Below are positions 1,731 to 58,305 of a DNA stretch of 64,000 bases, piece by piece (position 1 is the stretch's first letter; each line of letters begins with the position of its first letter). The notes below the pieces were generated by a model, which saw only the letters and a program-made list of their open reading frames with translations, did not search any database and was not told the origin of the DNA. The stretch comes from Marinobacter pelagius (lineage in GTDB: Bacteria; Pseudomonadota; Gammaproteobacteria; Pseudomonadales; Oleiphilaceae): the NCBI RefSeq assembly GCF_900114925.1, contig NZ_FOUR01000001.1, positions 434,001 through 498,000 of the forward strand, in the 5' to 3' direction. The position numbers were made by a program, and so were the translations under genes.

Positions 1731-2849
1731 TCATACAGACATATGACGCCGGAATAGCATCAGAGCTGCCCCGAAAAACACCGCTCCGATGGCAGTCAGA
1801 GCCAAAAACTGGGGCCACACCACATCAAGACCGGCACCACGGTACAGAATCCCCTGAGCCAGACTCACGAAGTGGGTTGTTGGAGCCAGCAGCATGATAT
1901 CCTGAACGAGGTCCGGCATGCTCTCCCGGGGCGTAATACCGCCTGAGAGAAGCTGTAGCGGCAGTATGATGAGTATCAACAAAAGGCCAAACTGGGGCAT
2001 GGTTCGCGCTACGGTGCCAACCAGAATGCCAATGGCCGTCGTAGAGAACAGGTGAATCAAGGCCCCGAAGAGAAACAGTAGAACAGACCCGGCAACGGGT
2101 ACCTGAAGCCAACCCTGAATGACAACGGTCACCGATAGCGTGGCCGCAATCATTACCACCAGCGCATTGGCCCAGACTTTGGCCGCCATGATCTCGTAGG
2201 AGCGCAGCGGCATCACCATCAGATGCTCTATAGTGCCGTGTTCCCGCTCCCGGATCAGGGCGGCACCGGTCAGAATGATGCTGATCAGGGTAATTTCTGT
2301 AATCAGCTCCATCACTCCCCCGAACCAGGAGCCTTCGAGGTTGGGGTTAAAGCTTACCCGATTCACCAGATTAACCGGGAGCTCCGTTGAGCCACTGCCA
2401 AGCTCGATGAATTCCGCAACTTCGGTCATTACAAACGATTGAATATAGTTGGCCCCGATAAACGCCTGGGTCATTCGGGTTGCGTCGATATTCAGCTGCA
2501 CACTGACCACGTCACCTTTGCGCACATCCCGCTCAAAGCCTTCAGGTATCACCAGGACGAAGGTATGTGACCCCCGGTCGAGCATGGTATCAATCTGGTC
2601 GTATCGAATCAGATCTGGCTTGAGAAACCAGGGCTGCTGGAACGACTGCATAATCCGTCCGGACAGTATGGTCTGATCTTCATCCACCACAGCCACGGGG
2701 GCATTGTTCAATTCCATGGATCCGGCCGAGCCCGCGGTATAGATAATCAGGGTGAATGCCAGCAGAACAAACACCATCAGTACTTTATCCCCCCAAAGAC
2801 TGCGCAACTCTTTGAGGCCCAGATTCCAGATATTCGCCAGTGACTTCAT
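1731..2849 (-). CDS. yhhJ: ABC-2 type permease, YhhJ-like
   Basis: A 372-residue inner-membrane permease of the ABC-2 family. One membrane helix lies near residues 24-42, followed by a large periplasmic domain to about residue 180 and five or six helices in the C-terminal half. The ABC-2 hallmark I-R-E-R-E-H-G-T-I-E-H-L is present after the second helix, marking the cytoplasmic coupling region. It is the last gene of a three-gene minus-strand operon; its ATG lies two bases after the rbbA stop. With the HlyD-like YhiI and the fused ATPase RbbA it probably forms a periplasm-spanning exporter. The substrate cannot be read from the sequence. Confidence 0.88.
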   Translation of the reverse strand: MKSLANIWNLGLKELRSLWGDKVLMVFVLLAFTLIIYTAGSAGSMELNNAPVAVVDEDQTILSGRIMQSFQQPWFLKPDLIRYDQIDTMLDRGSHTFVLVIPEGFERDVRKGDVVSVQLNIDATRMTQAFIGANYIQSFVMTEVAEFIELGSGSTELPVNLVNRVSFNPNLEGSWFGGVMELITEITLISIILTGAALIREREHGTIEHLMVMPLRSYEIMAAKVWANALVVMIAATLSVTVVIQGWLQVPVAGSVLLFLFGALIHLFSTTAIGILVGTVARTMPQFGLLLILIILPLQLLSGGITPRESMPDLVQDIMLLAPTTHFVSLAQGILYRGAGLDVVWPQFLALTAIGAVFFGAALMLFRRHMSV

Positions 2850-2851
2850 CG

Positions 2852-5584
2852 CTAGCGCCCCTGTTTCTTGAGCAGCATGACCGATAACAACGTCAACACC
2901 GGAATGAAGGCCGCCAGGTATAGTAACGTCTGCTGAAGGTCGCTGAAGGAAAGCCCCTTGGTAAAGACCCCGCGACTGACCTGAAGGAACCAGGTTGCAG
3001 GCCAGAACTCACCAATGAGCGCGCCCACGCCTTCCTGAGAGGAGACCGGCTCAGTCAGGCCTGAGAACTGTACGGTGGGCAAGAGGGTAATGATCGCGGT
3101 TGCGGCAAGTGCTGCAATCTGGGTGGAGGCAAACGCCGAAATTACCTGACCCAGTCCGGTGGTGACCACTACGTACAAGAGGGCGCCAAGTGAGAGTGTC
3201 CATAATCCCCCTTTGAGCGGCACTTCAAATATCCAAACCGCCAGCATAACCAGGCTGACATAACTGATCATACTGAAAGCGATGTATGGAAGCTGCTTAC
3301 CCAACAGGAATTCAAGACGCGTTACCGGCGTGACGTACAGGTTGGTGATCGATCCCAGCTCTTTTTCCCGGACGATACCCAGAGCCATCAGGATGGAAGG
3401 AATAAAAATAAGCAGTATCGGGATAACTGCGGGCACCATCGCATCCAGGCTTCGGAAATCCTGATTGTACCGATACCGGTCTTCAATCGAGACGAGGCTG
3501 AGTGTCGGAACTGTTCCGTAGGTACGAAATACCAGATCCGCCAGGTAGTTGTAGTGGATTCCCTCAACATAACCGGCAATGGTCTCTCCCCGGAACGGCA
3601 TGGCACCATCAACCCAGACGCCAATTTCTGTGTCTCTTCCCCGCTTCAGATCCTTGCCATAGCCCGGGGGGATCAAGAGAGCGAGGCTAAGCTCTCCAGA
3701 CTGCATCCGCTGGTTTAATTCGGACATGTCCCTGATGGGCGGACGCTCGATAAAATACCGGGATCCGGAGAATGCAGTGGCATAATCCCGGCTTTGCGGG
3801 GTCTGATCCTGGTCGAGGACCGCAAAGGACAGATCTTCGACATCAAGGGTAATACCATAGCCGAGGATCAGCATCAGCAGGGCCGAGCCAATAAAGGCAA
3901 ACGCCATACGGATCGGGTCCCTGATCAGTTCCCGTGCTTCACGGTGTCCATAGGCCCACAATCTTCGGGCACTGAACCAACGGTATTCGGGCTCACCTCC
4001 ATGATCATCGGTAAGTACAGCACCATTGCCGATGTCTTCGTCTCCAGTGGCGGTCTCGAGAGTGCGCATGAATGCCCCTTCGAGGTTTTTTTCACCTGCT
4101 TCCCGGATCAGCACCTCCGGCTTGTCTGACGCCAGCACCTCACCGGCGTGCATCAGTGAGATCCGGTCACACCGCTCACCCTCGTTCATAAAATGGGTAG
4201 AAATAAAAATCGTCACCCCATCCTCGCGGGACAGTCGGAACAGCAGGGCCCAGAACTGGTTCCGCGCGCCAGGGTCAACCCCCGACGTTGGTTCGTCGAG
4301 AATCAGTAATTCAGGCCGATGTACAACAGCCACGGCCAGTGAAAGCCTCTGGCGAACCCCCAGTGGCAGATGACTTGCCAGCTGATCCATTACCTCGGCC
4401 AGCCCGAACTCCTGCGCCAGCTCATCGACCCGGACACTGACCTGCTCTGCCGGCAGGTGGAACAAACGGGCGTGCAGTTCGAGATTCTGCCTCACCGTCA
4501 GTTCGCCATACAGGGAGAACCCCTGCGACATATAGCCAACGCGTTGCCTTGTGCTCAGGTCCCTGGCATCCAGTGGCTTTCCAAAGAGCAAAACATCACC
4601 CTCGGAAGGAGGCAATAGCCCGGTCAACATCTTCATGGTCGTGGTTTTGCCACAGCCATTAGAGCCAAGGAAGCCGAATATCTCCCCTCTGGAAATCGAT
4701 AAACTGACGTCTTTTACCGCCGTAAAATCGCCGAACCGCAAGGTCAGATGATTTGCTTCGATTGCCGGAAGGTTGTCTCCCGTCTGCGACGCCGTTTTGG
4801 GCGCCTTCTCCTCTCTTTTTTCGGTGCTGGTCGTGGAGGCTGAGCCTGAGGACAGAGCGATAAAGGCTTCATCCAGCGTTCGGGTGTTGGTCTGTGTACG
4901 CAACTCCAGGGGCGAGCCAGTCGCCAGGATGGCACCGTCATCCATAGCGGCTAACCAGTCATACCGTTCCGCTTCTTCCATGTAGGCTGTGGCAACCAGG
5001 ACACTCATGCCCGGTTGCTGGGCGCGGATTCTATCGATCAGGTCCCAGAATCGGGCCCGGGACAGTGGATCAACACCAGTGGTGGGTTCGTCGAGAATCA
5101 GAAGATCAGGGTTATGGATCAGGGCACAACAAAGGCCAAGCTTCTGCTTCATGCCTCCCGATAACTTACCGGCCGGCCTGTCCCTGAATGGAAGTAAACC
5201 GGTGGCCTCCAGCAGCCGATGAACCTGTTGCTCCCGTCGCACACCCCTCAGCCCGAAGAGATCGGCGAAGAAACCAATATTCTCATCGACAGTCAGGGTG
5301 TGATAAAGGTTGCCTCCCAACCCCTGGGGCATGTAGGCAATGCGCGGCGCGAGCCGGCTTCGAAACTGCTGACTCGCCATATCTCCGCCAAGCACATCCA
5401 ATGAGCCGGCTTGCAGTTTCCGCGCACCGGCGACCAGCCCGAGAAGAGTGGATTTCCCCGCGCCATCCGGTCCAATGAGGCCCACCATGCAACCGGCAGG
5501 CATCTCAATGTGGATGTCAGTGAGTGCCTTACATCCACCGTAAACGTGGCTAACGCCCTCCAGGCGAGCAACCGTGTCAGTCAT
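2852..5584 (-). CDS. rbbA: Fused ABC ATPase/permease, RbbA-like
   Basis: A 910-residue protein, the same size as E. coli RbbA (YhiH), which is described as ribosome-associated. It has two ABC ATPase domains followed by an ABC-2 permease domain. Walker A motifs are GPDGAGKST at 38-46 and GSNGCGKTT at 307-315. Both domains have Walker B LLILDEPT. The first carries a normal LSGG signature near 141; the second has LPLGVRQRL in place of LSGGxxQ, so the two ATP sites are probably not equivalent. A charged low-complexity linker (residues about 245-270) joins the domains. The membrane part begins near residue 555. The start overlaps the end of yhiI by eight bases, implying coupled translation. The family is clear; whether it acts on ribosomes, transport or both is open. 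Confidence 0.9.
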   Translation of the reverse strand: MTDTVARLEGVSHVYGGCKALTDIHIEMPAGCMVGLIGPDGAGKSTLLGLVAGARKLQAGSLDVLGGDMASQQFRSRLAPRIAYMPQGLGGNLYHTLTVDENIGFFADLFGLRGVRREQQVHRLLEATGLLPFRDRPAGKLSGGMKQKLGLCCALIHNPDLLILDEPTTGVDPLSRARFWDLIDRIRAQQPGMSVLVATAYMEEAERYDWLAAMDDGAILATGSPLELRTQTNTRTLDEAFIALSSGSASTTSTEKREEKAPKTASQTGDNLPAIEANHLTLRFGDFTAVKDVSLSISRGEIFGFLGSNGCGKTTTMKMLTGLLPPSEGDVLLFGKPLDARDLSTRQRVGYMSQGFSLYGELTVRQNLELHARLFHLPAEQVSVRVDELAQEFGLAEVMDQLASHLPLGVRQRLSLAVAVVHRPELLILDEPTSGVDPGARNQFWALLFRLSREDGVTIFISTHFMNEGERCDRISLMHAGEVLASDKPEVLIREAGEKNLEGAFMRTLETATGDEDIGNGAVLTDDHGGEPEYRWFSARRLWAYGHREARELIRDPIRMAFAFIGSALLMLILGYGITLDVEDLSFAVLDQDQTPQSRDYATAFSGSRYFIERPPIRDMSELNQRMQSGELSLALLIPPGYGKDLKRGRDTEIGVWVDGAMPFRGETIAGYVEGIHYNYLADLVFRTYGTVPTLSLVSIEDRYRYNQDFRSLDAMVPAVIPILLIFIPSILMALGIVREKELGSITNLYVTPVTRLEFLLGKQLPYIAFSMISYVSLVMLAVWIFEVPLKGGLWTLSLGALLYVVVTTGLGQVISAFASTQIAALAATAIITLLPTVQFSGLTEPVSSQEGVGALIGEFWPATWFLQVSRGVFTKGLSFSDLQQTLLYLAAFIPVLTLLSVMLLKKQGR

Positions 5585-13325: not shown

Positions 13326-13355
13326 GGGGTCAGATGAAAGCGTTCATCAGACCCC
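13326..13355. repeat. REPIN-like 30-nt hairpin, copy 1
   Basis: GGGGTCAGATGAA and TTCATCAGACCCC flank the four bases AGCG. The stem is 13 pairs with one A-A mismatch. It belongs to a set of four 30-nt hairpins in this window that share the GGGGTC...GACCCC ends and vary in the inner stem. Confidence 0.75.
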
Positions 13356-13363
13356 GGGAAAGT

Positions 13364-13399
13364 GGGGTCGGAGGAAAGTTTTCTTCCGACCCCTTTTTT
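13364..13399. terminator. REPIN-like hairpin copy 2 with T tract
   Basis: GGGGTCGGAGGAAA pairs with TTTCTTCCGACCCC (one G-T wobble) around a two-base centre at 13364-13393, followed by TTTTTT. It lies between the convergent ACBP and desaturase genes and could end transcription of ACBP. It is the second member of a head-to-tail pair eight bases after copy 1. Confidence 0.7.
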
Positions 13400-19980: not shown

Positions 19981-19996
19981 GTTTTGAAATGAAAAA

Positions 19997-20026
19997 GGGG
20001 TCAGAAGAAAGCATTCTTCTGACCCC
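19997..20026. repeat. REPIN-like 30-nt hairpin, copy 3
   Basis: GGGGTCAGAAGAA pairs perfectly (13 bp) with TTCTTCTGACCCC around AGCA. Compared with the other copies, the inner stem differs on both arms, so base pairing is kept. It lies 16 bases after the pckA stop. Confidence 0.75.
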
Positions 20027-20052
20027 GACTTAAGGCGCCAAATTCGCGGTAT

Positions 20053-20093
20053 AAAAAAGGGGTCAGATGAAAGCTTTCATCTGACCCCTTTTT
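20053..20093. terminator. REPIN-like hairpin copy 4, bidirectional terminator
   Basis: The 30-base core 20059-20088 is a perfect palindrome (GGGGTCAGATGAAAG and its complement), preceded by six A and followed by five T. It lies between the convergent ends of pckA and the truncated hemoglobin gene and should stop transcription from both sides. Confidence 0.8.
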
Positions 20094-20096
20094 CGT

Positions 20097-20459
20097 TCAG
20101 ACCGCCACTACCTGGGATCTGAGGCCATACAACGCGTAGAGCACTTCCTCCCGCTCACGCTGACCAATACCATTCTTCTCCAGCGCCAGCAGGGCGTCAT
20201 CAAGTACGGCCATGAATTCCGAGGGAGAAATATTCATACCACGGTGGGCCGCCAACATATCCTTGCCCTGATAGGCATCTGACGGGCCACCCGTTGCGCT
20301 GACGAAAAACGTCGCCGCCGCATGCTTGAGCTTCGGCAAATCAATATCAGCAAATCGGACGCCAACCACTTTGTTGACCGCATGGTTATCGACCACATCG
20401 TTGGCAATCCGGGTAATGCCATCCACACCACCGAGTCTGTTGAACAGTGATTCTGTCAC
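20097..20459 (-). CDS. Group I truncated hemoglobin
   Basis: A 120-residue heme protein of the trHbN type, likely acting in oxygen or nitric-oxide chemistry in the cytoplasm. Visible features are SLFNRLGGVDGITRIANDVVDN (A/B helices), a Gly-Gly turn in SATGGPS, and the proximal histidine in MLAAHRGMNIS. The start is GTG at 20459, with GAGGAGG six bases upstream, rather than the longer frame to 20507. It is a single gene; its end faces pckA across a palindromic terminator. Confidence 0.9.
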   Translation of the reverse strand: MTESLFNRLGGVDGITRIANDVVDNHAVNKVVGVRFADIDLPKLKHAAATFFVSATGGPSDAYQGKDMLAAHRGMNISPSEFMAVLDDALLALEKNGIGQREREEVLYALYGLRSQVVAV

Positions 20460-54654: not shown

Positions 54655-54712
54655 TTGTAATGGCCGATCGTTATCCCCATGATGTCTGGAACAATTCTAT
54701 GGCGTGTGTTTT

Positions 54713-55027
54713 ATGGCAGCGAAGTATCTGACTCCCGAGCAGGATGCGCAGATCCGGCGGTGGGAGCGCTGGAACCGCAATTACTTCATTTTTGCGTTTG
54801 TGGCGCTGACAGTGGTGCTGGTGTTCAGTAGCCAGCTGGGGCTGTCCAGTGGCGAGAACTGGGGTTCCCTGGGGGTTCTGATTGCGGCTCTGATCGCCCC
54901 AATCATTGTGTTGCAGCTGCGGCTGCGGTGTCCGGCCTGTGGCCACAAGATCGGCTGGCAGGCGAAGCTGATGGCGCCGGATCAGTGCAAGACCTGCGGA
55001 ACCTTCCTGCGCGCCAAGGGGCGCTGA
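54713..55027 (+). CDS. Small membrane protein with two CxxC motifs
   Basis: A 104-residue protein not assigned to a family. Residues about 25-42 and 53-70 are hydrophobic and probably form two membrane helices. After them, C-P-A-C and C-K-T-C are arranged like a zinc ribbon (about 25 residues apart). The ATG at 54713 is used; an in-frame GTG at 54704 would add three residues, and neither has a strong ribosome site. It lies between the GGDEF-EAL gene and the metal-resistance operon, with no clear tie to either. Confidence 0.7.
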   Translation: MAAKYLTPEQDAQIRRWERWNRNYFIFAFVALTVVLVFSSQLGLSSGENWGSLGVLIAALIAPIIVLQLRLRCPACGHKIGWQAKLMAPDQCKTCGTFLRAKGR

Positions 55028-55058: not shown

Positions 55059-55090
55059 TTGACCTGTGAGTTGCTCACAGGTTTTAGGCT
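55059..55090 (+). promoter_or_regulatory. MerR-type promoter and operator of the copper operon
   Basis: TTGACC (55059-55064) and TAGGCT (55085-55090) are separated by 20 bases, longer than the usual 17, as in promoters activated by MerR-family metal regulators. The spacer region holds a dyad, ACCTGTGAG (55062-55070) and CTCACAGGT (55074-55082). The expected transcript start is near 55097. Confidence 0.8.
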
Positions 55091-55128
55091 ATCTTCATTA
55101 GTTGAGTTATCACTGGTGCATGCCGTGT

Positions 55129-55230
55129 CCGGTTGGGCTATCGGTATGAAACACGCTCAAGCACGTCCCTGTGACGCTTGAGCTCCGCCATCCATGGCTC
55201 CGCACAGTTTCATACCGATAGCCCAACCGG
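55129..55230. repeat. 102-nt inverted-repeat element in the merR leader
   Basis: The arms 55129-55152 (starting CCGGTTGGGCTATCGG) and 55207-55230 are a perfect 24-base inverted repeat. Inside lies a second inverted repeat, GCTCAAGC (55155-55162) and GCTTGAGC (55176-55183). The element lies between the MerR-type promoter and the merR ATG, so it is transcribed into the operon leader. It has the look of a small non-autonomous insertion (MITE-like). No target duplication and no second copy were found in this window. Confidence 0.8.
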
Positions 55231-55262
55231 CCGCTCCGCCAACTCAGGGTGGAAACGTCATT

Positions 55263-55706
55263 ATGAAAGTCAAAGAAATCGCCCAGGCCGCCGGTGTGAA
55301 TCCCGACACCGTCCGCTTCTACACCCGGGAGGGTCTGCTCAATCCGACCCGCAACCCAGACAACAATTATCAGCAGTACGACGCCGATGACCTGCGCCGG
55401 CTGCGGTTTGCCCGCAAGGCTCGGCAGCTGGGGTTTTCGCTGCCGGAGATACGGTCGATTCTGGATCAGGCCGATGACCACCATTCGCCGTGCCCGATGG
55501 TGCGGGAGGTGTTCGAGAAGCGGTTGGCCGAGGTGGAGCGGGAGATTGCCGAGTTGCAGCAGCTGCGGGAGCGGATGAAGAGTGCTCTCGGGATCTGGCG
55601 CGATATGCCGGATGGCACGCCGGACGGTCATACGATCTGTCGGCTGATCGAGCATTGGGACGAGCCGGCCCTCGCCAAAGATACGGAGGCGTATTCAGAT
55701 GACTGA
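55263..55706 (+). CDS. MerR-family heavy-metal regulator
   Basis: A 147-residue regulator. The helix-turn-helix opens with [26 protein letters not shown]; the [30 protein letters not shown] part is the wing. The dimerisation helix follows SPCPMV. Cys near 80 and another in HTICRLIEH near 128 are candidate metal ligands, more like ZntR/CadR than the CX7C loop of CueR. The start is ATG at 55263; the frame stays open upstream only through the inverted-repeat element. It overlaps copA by eight bases, so it likely controls its own operon. Confidence 0.87.
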
Positions 55707-58305
55707 GACAACCGAACTGCACCGGGCATTGTCCATTTCAGGGGCGTCCTGTCAGGGCTGTGCGAAAAAGATTCGTAACGCGCTTGAACCTCTGACCGGT
55801 GACACCGAGCTGGTGGAGGTGAATCTGGAGGAGCAGACGGTCGCCTTGCCCGAGGGTGTCGACCTTGAGGAGGCGGCACGGCGGGTGACGGACGCAGGCT
55901 ATCCGGCCGAACCGGTCAAAGAGGCCGATGAACAACCGGCCAGTTGTTGCGCCGGCAAGGCGAAGGCTGAGACTTCTGAGGGGCATACTCACCAGGATCA
56001 TTCCGGGCACCAGGCGGAAACGCCGGATGAGGTTGCCCCAGAGGCGCCGGCCGGGGGTGACCAGGTCAGTCTTTCGGTCTCCGGTGCTACCTGCGCCTCC
56101 TGCGTGAATACCATCGAGAAGGCGATGATGTCGGTTTCAGGCGTTTCCCACGCCCATATGAACCTGGCGGACAACACCGCGACGGCGACCGGGGACGCGG
56201 ATCCGCAGGCACTGGTCAGGGCCATCGAGAGTGCCGGTTATGGCGCCAGTGTGATCGAGAATGCCGACGATGCGGATGAGCGTAAGCAGGCAGAGGATCG
56301 CAGGCAGTACCGCTCACTGCTGATCAAGATGGCGGTGAGTCTGTCCCTGGGTCTGGGTCTGATGATCTGGGGCATGGGCTTCGGGTCGATGATGGTGACC
56401 GAGGCCAACCAGACCACCTGGTTGGGACTTGGTGTTCTGACGTTGATCGTGATGGCCGCCACCGGCGGGCATTTCTACACCGGGGCCTGGAAGGCGTTCC
56501 GGCATCATAACGCCAATATGGACACGCTGATTGCCGTCGGCACAGGTACCGCCTGGCTGTATTCCATTGTCGTGGCCAGCGTGCCGGAGTTGTTGCCGGA
56601 GATGGCCCGGCATGTGTATTTCGAGGCCTCGGCGATGATCATCGGTCTGATCAATCTGGGCCAGGCACTGGAGTTGCGGGCCAAGGGCAAGACGTCGGAG
56701 GCGGTCCGCCGGCTGCTGGATCTGCGGGCGAAAACCGCCCGGGTGATCCGGGATGGCCAGGAGCAGGACATTCCGGTGGAAGAGGTGCGCAAAGGCGACC
56801 GGGTCCGGGTGCGTCCGGGCGAGAAGATTCCGGTGGATGGCGTCATCCGCGAGGGCAGCAGCCGGGTGGACGAGAGCATGCTGACCGGCGAGCCCATGCC
56901 GGTGAGCAAGGCCGAGGGTGACGAGGTTTCCGCCGGCACCCTGAATACTCACGGCTCAATCATCTATGAAGCCACCCGGGTCGGCAGCGAGACGGCCCTG
57001 GCGCAGATCATCCGGCTGGTGAAAAAGGCCCAGGGCTCCAAGCCCGCCATCGGTCGCCTGGCAGACAAGATCTCGTCGGTGTTCGTGCCCACGGTGATGA
57101 TCATCGCCGTCTTTTCGGCGCTGGTCTGGTACAACGTCGGGCCGGAGCCGGCGGTCGTGCACATGATGGTGGCCGCCACCACGGTGCTGATTATTGCCTG
57201 CCCGTGTGCCCTTGGGCTGGCCACGCCGATGTCGGTGATGGTCGGTGTCGGCAAGGCCGCCGAGTATGGCGCCCTGATCCGCCAGGGGGATGCCCTGCAG
57301 ACCGCCGGCAAGCTGGATCTGGTGATCCTCGACAAGACCGGAACCATCACCGAGGGGCATCCTGGGGTCACCCGTGTGCATTCGGCCAACGGTGACGAGT
57401 CCCGGCTGCTTGCCCTGGCCGCCGGCCTGGAGCAGCACTCGGAGCATCCGCTGGCAGAGGCAATTCTGGCAAAAGCACGGGATGAGAACATCGAGCCGGA
57501 AAAGGTATCCGGCTTCGAGGCCATCAATGGCAAGGGCGTCCGGGGTGAGCTGGACGGGCAGACCGTAAACCTCGGCAATCGCCGCTGGCTGGAAGACGAG
57601 GGCCTGACTCTGGACAGTCTCTCTGACGCCGCCGATACCATCACGGCAGAGGCCGGCACCCCGCTGTACCTGGCCCTTGGCGACGAGGTTCTGGGGGTGA
57701 TCGGGGTGGCCGATGCCATCAAGCCCGATTCAAAAGCCGCCATCAAGCGGCTGCACCACGCCGGCATCAAGGTGATGATGGTTACCGGCGACGTGGAGGC
57801 AACGGCACGGGCCATCGCCAGTAAGGCGGACATCGACGATTACCGGGCGGAAGTCCTGCCCGAGGACAAGGCCGAGGTGGTCAGCGAGATGCGTGGCAAG
57901 GGCTACACCGTGGCCATGGTCGGTGACGGCATCAACGATGCGCCCGCGCTGGCGGCTGCTGATGTCGGCTTCGCCATCGGCACCGGCACGGATGTGGCCA
58001 TCGAGAGTGCCGCCATCACCCTGATGCGCGGGTCCCTGCACGGGGTGCCCGATGCCATCGAGATTTCCCGGGCCACGGTGAAGAACATTCACCAGAACCT
58101 GTTCGGGGCCTTCATATACAACTCCCTGGGTATACCGGTGGCCGCAGGCCTGCTCTATCCTTTGTGGGGCATCCTGATGAATCCGATCCTGGCCGGCGCG
58201 GCCATGTCCCTGTCTTCGGTCACCGTGGTCTCCAACGCCAACCGTCTGCGGCTGTTCCGAACCAGCCACAATCCGGAGCGTACTGAACACAAGGAGCAGA
58301 ACTGA
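55699..58305 (+). CDS. copA: Copper-exporting P1B-type ATPase CopA
   Basis: An 868-residue membrane pump. Two N-terminal metal-binding domains carry C18-Q-G-C21 and C132-A-S-C135, joined by a linker with CC and five His (SCCAGKAK ... HTHQDHSGH). The intramembrane motif is C501-P-C503, the phosphorylated residue is Asp545 (DKTGTIT), and TGE and [10 protein letters not shown] are intact. [11 protein letters not shown] and [16 protein letters not shown] near the end are signatures of Cu+ pumps. The ATG overlaps merR by eight bases. The regulator looks more like the Zn/Cd type, yet the pump motifs are of Cu+ type. Confidence 0.95.

Follow-up and report, generated by a model that had tools for sequence, protein, structure and literature searches.

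The RNA motif TwoAYGGAY (Rfam RF01731; Weinberg 2010, PMC2864571) consists of a long basal stem and two hairpins with AYGGAY-type loops, and has independently been predicted to bind CsrA (PMC4333381). The target rule of CsrA/RsmE is an ANGGAN hexaloop, with RUACARGGAUGU obtained by SELEX and bridging over 10–63 nt (PMC7652899). CsrA-sequestering RNAs of the CsrB/RsmZ type carry multiple ANGGAN hexaloop hairpins, closed by C-G and spaced for CsrA dimers. Among DNA repeats, REP/BIME/REPIN sequences, which go with RAYT transposases (PMC3733652; REPINs, PMC3116915), are intergenic, palindromic and multi-copy, with one preferred pair arrangement; reports from A. variabilis, T. roseum and H. neapolitanus describe REP sequences embedded in palindromes (PMC3733652). 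MITEs are short, non-coding, palindromic and dispersed. Compensatory evolution of RNA is commonly thought to pass via G-U pairs, and template switching is a known cause of such changes (PMC8794818).

We analysed a hairpin in the leader of a merR-copA operon of Marinobacter pelagius, located in a stretch of 64,000 nucleotides (the window). The element shares each of the structural traits listed above with TwoAYGGAY, CsrB/RsmZ, REP sequences and MITEs, respectively, and differs from all of them. TwoAYGGAY is a cis-regulatory RNA in Rfam, whereas the element is a dispersed, randomly oriented repeat. Unlike CsrB/RsmZ, it has two sites instead of many, in tens of scattered copies at which no promoter or terminator was seen. 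In contrast to the 20–40-bp REP palindrome, it measures 102 bp or more, lacks a conserved terminal GTAG/CGTC tag, has long copy-specific arms and shows no tie to the RAYT of the genome. Unlike MITEs, it has no common terminal repeats.

In our reading, to which we assign a probability of about 0.65, the hairpin is a dispersed repeat of the TwoAYGGAY superfamily, with arms probably kept complementary at the DNA level and copies that would provide CsrA sites, and it would be a passenger at merR. The element is ordinary as a feature of a copper operon and more interesting as a family.

The hairpin in the merR leader

The hairpin consists of a perfect 24-bp inverted repeat (100% complementary) enclosing 54 nt, and this centre contains an inner perfect 8-nt repeat (Table 1). 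Its predicted fold of −80.8 kcal/mol compares with −49.5 ± 4.1 kcal/mol for shuffled sequences (z = −7.6; 0 of 200 as stable), a stability far above chance. The sequence-only reading had described both repeats, the promoter and the merR start, and these were borne out by the coordinates, the fold and the identification of MerR and CopA with Pfam.

The promoter comprises a −35 element (55059–55064), a spacer dyad ACCTGTGAG-TTG-CTCACAGGT and a −10 element (55085–55090). It was recognisable upstream of merR in 20/20 loci, from this genome and 19 relatives in the genus; at one locus (L073) the automated scan missed it, and the −35 element and dyad are visible in the sequence itself. From the promoter position, transcription of merR probably starts near 55097, with the hairpin about 30 nt into the transcript. 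Transcripts from this promoter would carry the hairpin, as had been proposed. A DUF411 gene lies downstream of merR and the copA-like gene. Upstream of the promoter, at 54704–55027 of the window, is a conserved 107-aa reading frame that has CPAC...CKTC cysteine pairs and matches no Pfam family.

Table 1. Features of the merR leader and operon (positions in the window)
Feature	Position	Strand	Remarks
MerR/CueR-type promoter	55059..55090	+	TTGACC, 20-bp spacer with 9-bp dyad, TAGGCT; kept in leaders with and without the element
Left palindromic arm	55129..55152	+	Copy-specific sequence, unique in the genome; arms of other copies differ
Conserved core of the dispersed element	55153..55206	-	53–58-nt core common to copies; RNA-like reading on the minus strand
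Core hairpin 2, CAC-AGGGAC-GTG (CAGGGACG, CsrA-type)	55162..55173	-	Within a longer 8-bp stem, 55155–55162/55176–55183
Core hairpin 1, GCCA-TGGA-TGGC (CATGGATG, CsrA-type CANGGANG)	55187..55198	-	GGA unchanged in every copy (Marinobacter 40/40; distant set 32/32)
Right palindromic arm	55207..55230	+	Perfect complement of the left arm
Shine-Dalgarno-like AGGGTGG of merR	55246..55252	+	Read from the sequence; outside the hairpin
merR family regulator gene	55263..55706	+	ATG at 55263; Pfam MerR_1, MerR-DNA-bind
copA-like P-type ATPase gene with HMA domains	55699..58305	+	Pfam E1-E2_ATPase, Hydrolase, HMA; 8-nt overlap with merR

A dispersed repeat with copy-specific arms

A genome search with the 24-nt arm, suggested by the sequence-only reading, gave a divided answer. 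Across the genome, which comprises 3.80 Mb in 16 contigs, the arm was single-copy, while the interior of the hairpin (~55149–55210) recurred at more than 40 other places. A covariance model built from 40 copies counted 92–95 copies in this genome. Nearly every copy has a 53–58-nt core flanked by arms of 24–31 bp, which are complementary to each other with 0–3 mismatches and differ in sequence from copy to copy (arm identity averages 0.55, and 0.44 in the distal half). Since the arms are unique to each copy and the interior is repeated, the arms are not terminal repeats common to the copies.

The element was present in 24/24 genus relatives sampled, with 33–102 copies in 19 of these; low counts (3–12 copies) were found in G004, G011, G012, G016 and G020. 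When named genomes were scanned with a sequence pattern, the 80 loci listed were all from Marinobacter, and the covariance model found the family in 35 of 274 gammaproteobacterial genomes, a class-wide sample that includes our own genome. Plasmids and phages gave no match.

All 45 copies examined are intergenic with respect to genes predicted by a program that had been trained on the window. The copies show no orientation bias relative to neighbouring genes: 13 oppose both neighbours, 13 run alongside both, 10 have divergent and 8 have convergent genes on either side, and for 1 a neighbour lies beyond the stretch. Where copies lie close together, the arrangement is uniform, as 20/20 close pairs are divergent with gaps of 45–179 bp; these come from two genomes listed in detail, and some pairs are common to both and thus not all are independent.

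The arms change by paired replacements. In the 40-copy alignment, 99.4% of structure cells are paired and 285 two-sided changes occur, against 66 in shuffled alignments; one-sided (G-U) states are absent from the inner arm pairs (columns 8–24). Comparison of 38 orthologous copies with those of one relative (G002) revealed 86 two-sided Watson-Crick replacements, many of the CG-GC type, and one-sided changes comprising 6 that involve G-U and 46 that involve mismatches, at a divergence of 4.7% in the core and 13.4% in the flanks. The merR-leader arm itself carries four two-sided compensating changes in the G002 ortholog. In the distant copies described below, G-U pairs are less rare (23/768 cells). 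Adjacent clustering of two-sided arm changes was not significant (22 against 18.3 expected).

The prevalence of two-sided Watson-Crick changes and the scarcity of G-U states point to a process in DNA that copies one arm from its partner rather than to selection on RNA. From this pattern, we infer that template switching keeps the arms complementary: the palindrome would form a hairpin at the replication fork, and one arm would be copied from the other. The approximately 90 palindromes per genome thus offer a natural set in which compensating changes are apparently mutational and do not stem from RNA selection, which calls for caution in taking covariation as proof of RNA function.

CsrA-type loops of the core

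On the minus strand, opposite to merR, the core forms two hairpins, GCCA-NGGA-TGGC and CAC-ANGGAC-GTG. In both loops, GGA is invariant and the preceding N is variable among the 40 Marinobacter copies, in which the C..G on either side of the loop is also nearly constant. In the distant set, consisting of 32 matches from 29 loci in other gammaproteobacteria, both loops read CANGGA, one further base and then a closing G nearly without exception, and the outer stem pairs covary; the search model was built from GGA-bearing sequences, and this set therefore leans towards GGA. The spacing of the two loop sites was 23–25 nt in 119 elements.

Both loops thus follow the sequence rule for CsrA/RsmA sites, namely an ANGGAN hexaloop closed by C-G and two sites within 10–63 nt. 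Since the loops match the published rule and their spacing lies within the bridging range of the dimer, RNA of the GGA strand is predicted to bind CsrA/RsmA. In transcripts of the GGA strand, each copy would bind one CsrA/RsmA dimer through its pair of loops, and the family may serve as a sponge or as a set of CsrA sites spread over the genome. This genome has a csrA gene. Across the 274 genomes, CsrA occurred in 32/35 genomes with the element and 202/239 without it, which gives no clear association, because CsrA is too common for a contrast. Scans for promoters or terminators beside the copies gave nothing convincing, with few T residues after the arms; together with the random orientation, this argues against a dedicated small RNA.

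The resemblance to TwoAYGGAY extends to the whole element, which aligns with the full-length model. The scores of the focal copy (27.9 bits) and of the best copy in this genome (41.3 bits) both fall below the gathering cut-off of 43, and a distant relative (L237) passes it with 45.2 bits. Matches of RF01731 and of our element model coincide in G110, G255 and our own genome (G000). The N position of the loop accepts any base, giving ANGGAN and not the strict AYGGAY, and focal hairpin 2 reads AGGGAC. On the basis of the shared architecture and coinciding matches, and in view of the scores below the cut-off, we assign the element to the superfamily of TwoAYGGAY and do not claim membership of the Rfam family. 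MIR-type Rfam matches were also below the cut-off, and we took them as chance matches to the long stem.

Several copies per genome of RF01731 matches above the cut-off were noted in G195, G306, G278, G183, G062 and G123. In G195 and G306, these include −/+ pairs as in our element, so that the TwoAYGGAY of Rfam also looks dispersed.

We tentatively extend our reading to TwoAYGGAY as a whole, which might be, instead of a set of cis-regulatory RNAs, a REP-like dispersed element with transcripts that titrate CsrA as a genome-wide sponge, divergent pairing and stems maintained by template switching; we regard this extension as possible rather than probable. If the sponge reading is true, a divergent pair would always supply one hairpin that binds CsrA, irrespective of the strand being transcribed. 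Our placement puts an orphan RNA motif into a large family of dispersed repeats, and a testable link between repeats and CsrA is offered for marine gammaproteobacteria. A search of the literature available to us for Marinobacter repeats, REP-CsrA links and TwoAYGGAY as a repeat found nothing.

The strongest alternative, which we consider distinctly less probable than our reading, is that a transposase or another enzyme acting on DNA recognises the loops of the core as hairpins of single-stranded DNA and has spread the copies, the likeness to CsrA sites being coincidental. The random orientation and intergenic dispersal of the copies, their divergent pairs, which resemble REP doublets, and the nearly exclusive Watson-Crick pairing of the arms agree with such an enzyme; G-U pairs are rare in the core stems as well, which would fit recognition of the loops at the DNA level and speaks against the CsrA part of our reading. 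Against this alternative stands the agreement of both loops with the CsrA/RsmE rule, with a free N and a fixed closing C-G, through the 32 distant copies. RAYT mobilisation showed no link to the element in our own genome or in the class sample. The sole Y1_Tnp gene of the genome has another cognate repeat (GGGGTCAG...) on its flanks, with no element nearby; Y1 transposase is absent from 7 of the 35 element-bearing genomes, and none of the listed Y1 transposase genes in the class sample adjoins a listed element.

Another short palindromic repeat (GGGGTCAGAAGAAAGC...), of the kind that flanks the only RAYT-like gene of the genome (L113), has copies in the window at 13326–13399 and 19986–20101. 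The same repeat is also found beside the element in L030, L035 and L043.

The element as a probable passenger at merR

The sequence-only reading had also proposed that the hairpin adds a control layer to the metal response, through premature termination, stabilisation of the 5′ end or blocked ribosome entry. Such tuning of copper induction would suit the very stable fold in a 5′ leader and the inheritance of the element at the merR site through many species. The element occupies this leader, in the same place and orientation, at 14 of the 20 loci. At the other six (L069, L070, L071, L073, L074 and L075), it is missing, although merR and its promoter are the same; between the −10 element and the ATG there are 48–78 nt at these loci where measured, compared with 169–198 nt in leaders with the element (264 nt in L072). 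The comparison with relatives lacking the element speaks against a role in copper control.

The remaining evidence is in line with this. An intrinsic terminator is a G+C-rich hairpin followed by a U-tract; no U-tract follows the hairpin and no terminator was called at the element, which speaks against premature termination. The position of the Shine-Dalgarno-like sequence beyond the hairpin speaks against blocked ribosome entry. The CsrA-type loops lie on the strand opposite to merR mRNA, and about 90 further copies are scattered, unbiased, at unrelated places. We therefore consider a leader hairpin that tunes copper induction improbable, and a copper-specific control role for the element is unsupported. 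As merR mRNA contains no GGA loops, its ribosome site lies beyond the hairpin, no terminator tail is present and relatives do without it, the focal element is most likely an old passenger in the merR leader. The transcribed strand at merR being opposite to the GGA strand, the element would form a tolerated stable hairpin and not a switch responsive to copper or CsrA.

For the element at this site, parsimony gave 3 changes of state on a tree of the merR-copA region, which was midpoint-rooted and has some weak forks. If the deep rows L069, L071, L074 and L075 are taken as primitively lacking the element, the common ancestor of the other species probably gained it once. A single loss would then explain L070 and L073, which seem to retain remnants of the left arm. 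The empty orthologous sites in L069, L071, L074 and L075 are too diverged to place insertion junctions.

Two leaders show further rearrangement. In L072 (G003), extra hairpin sequence lies inside the core of the element. In L073 (G009), the element and the merR start seem to have been deleted together, and the promoter adjoins an internal merR codon.

The suggestion that a mobile repeat had landed between promoter and gene thus holds in part: the hairpin belongs to a repeat family with one inferred gain at this site, and a MITE in the strict sense is not supported. A classical MITE would have arisen from an insertion sequence by deletion and would move by means of its terminal inverted repeats, and the short, palindromic, multi-copy and non-coding nature of the element would agree with such an origin. 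However, the copies do not share their ends, and hence no common terminal repeat exists for a transposase to recognise. We found no parent element, associated transposase or target duplication, and regard this origin as very unlikely. Copies at contig ends in G392 were followed as a lead to an insertion sequence and rejected, since the compared neighbourhoods have in common only short repeat blocks surrounding the element (about 270 bp at most). An integron attC-like recombination site, brought to mind by GTTGGGC/GCCCAAC in the focal arm, is scarcely credible, as the GTTRRRY/RYYYAAC boxes are not conserved among copies, which are scattered in both orientations with no cassette array.

In four hybrid copies (L037, L038, L040 and L044), the core of the element is joined to another left half (CGCAATCACAGATTGCGGTCGTTCGGC... 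and ATGAAGCTTCGCTTCAT); they lack complementary arms and apparently represent a second repeat family. In L338 (G488), positions 1788–3152 contain six tandem 227-bp units, each combining a relative of the element with a REP-like palindrome of the GTAG type.
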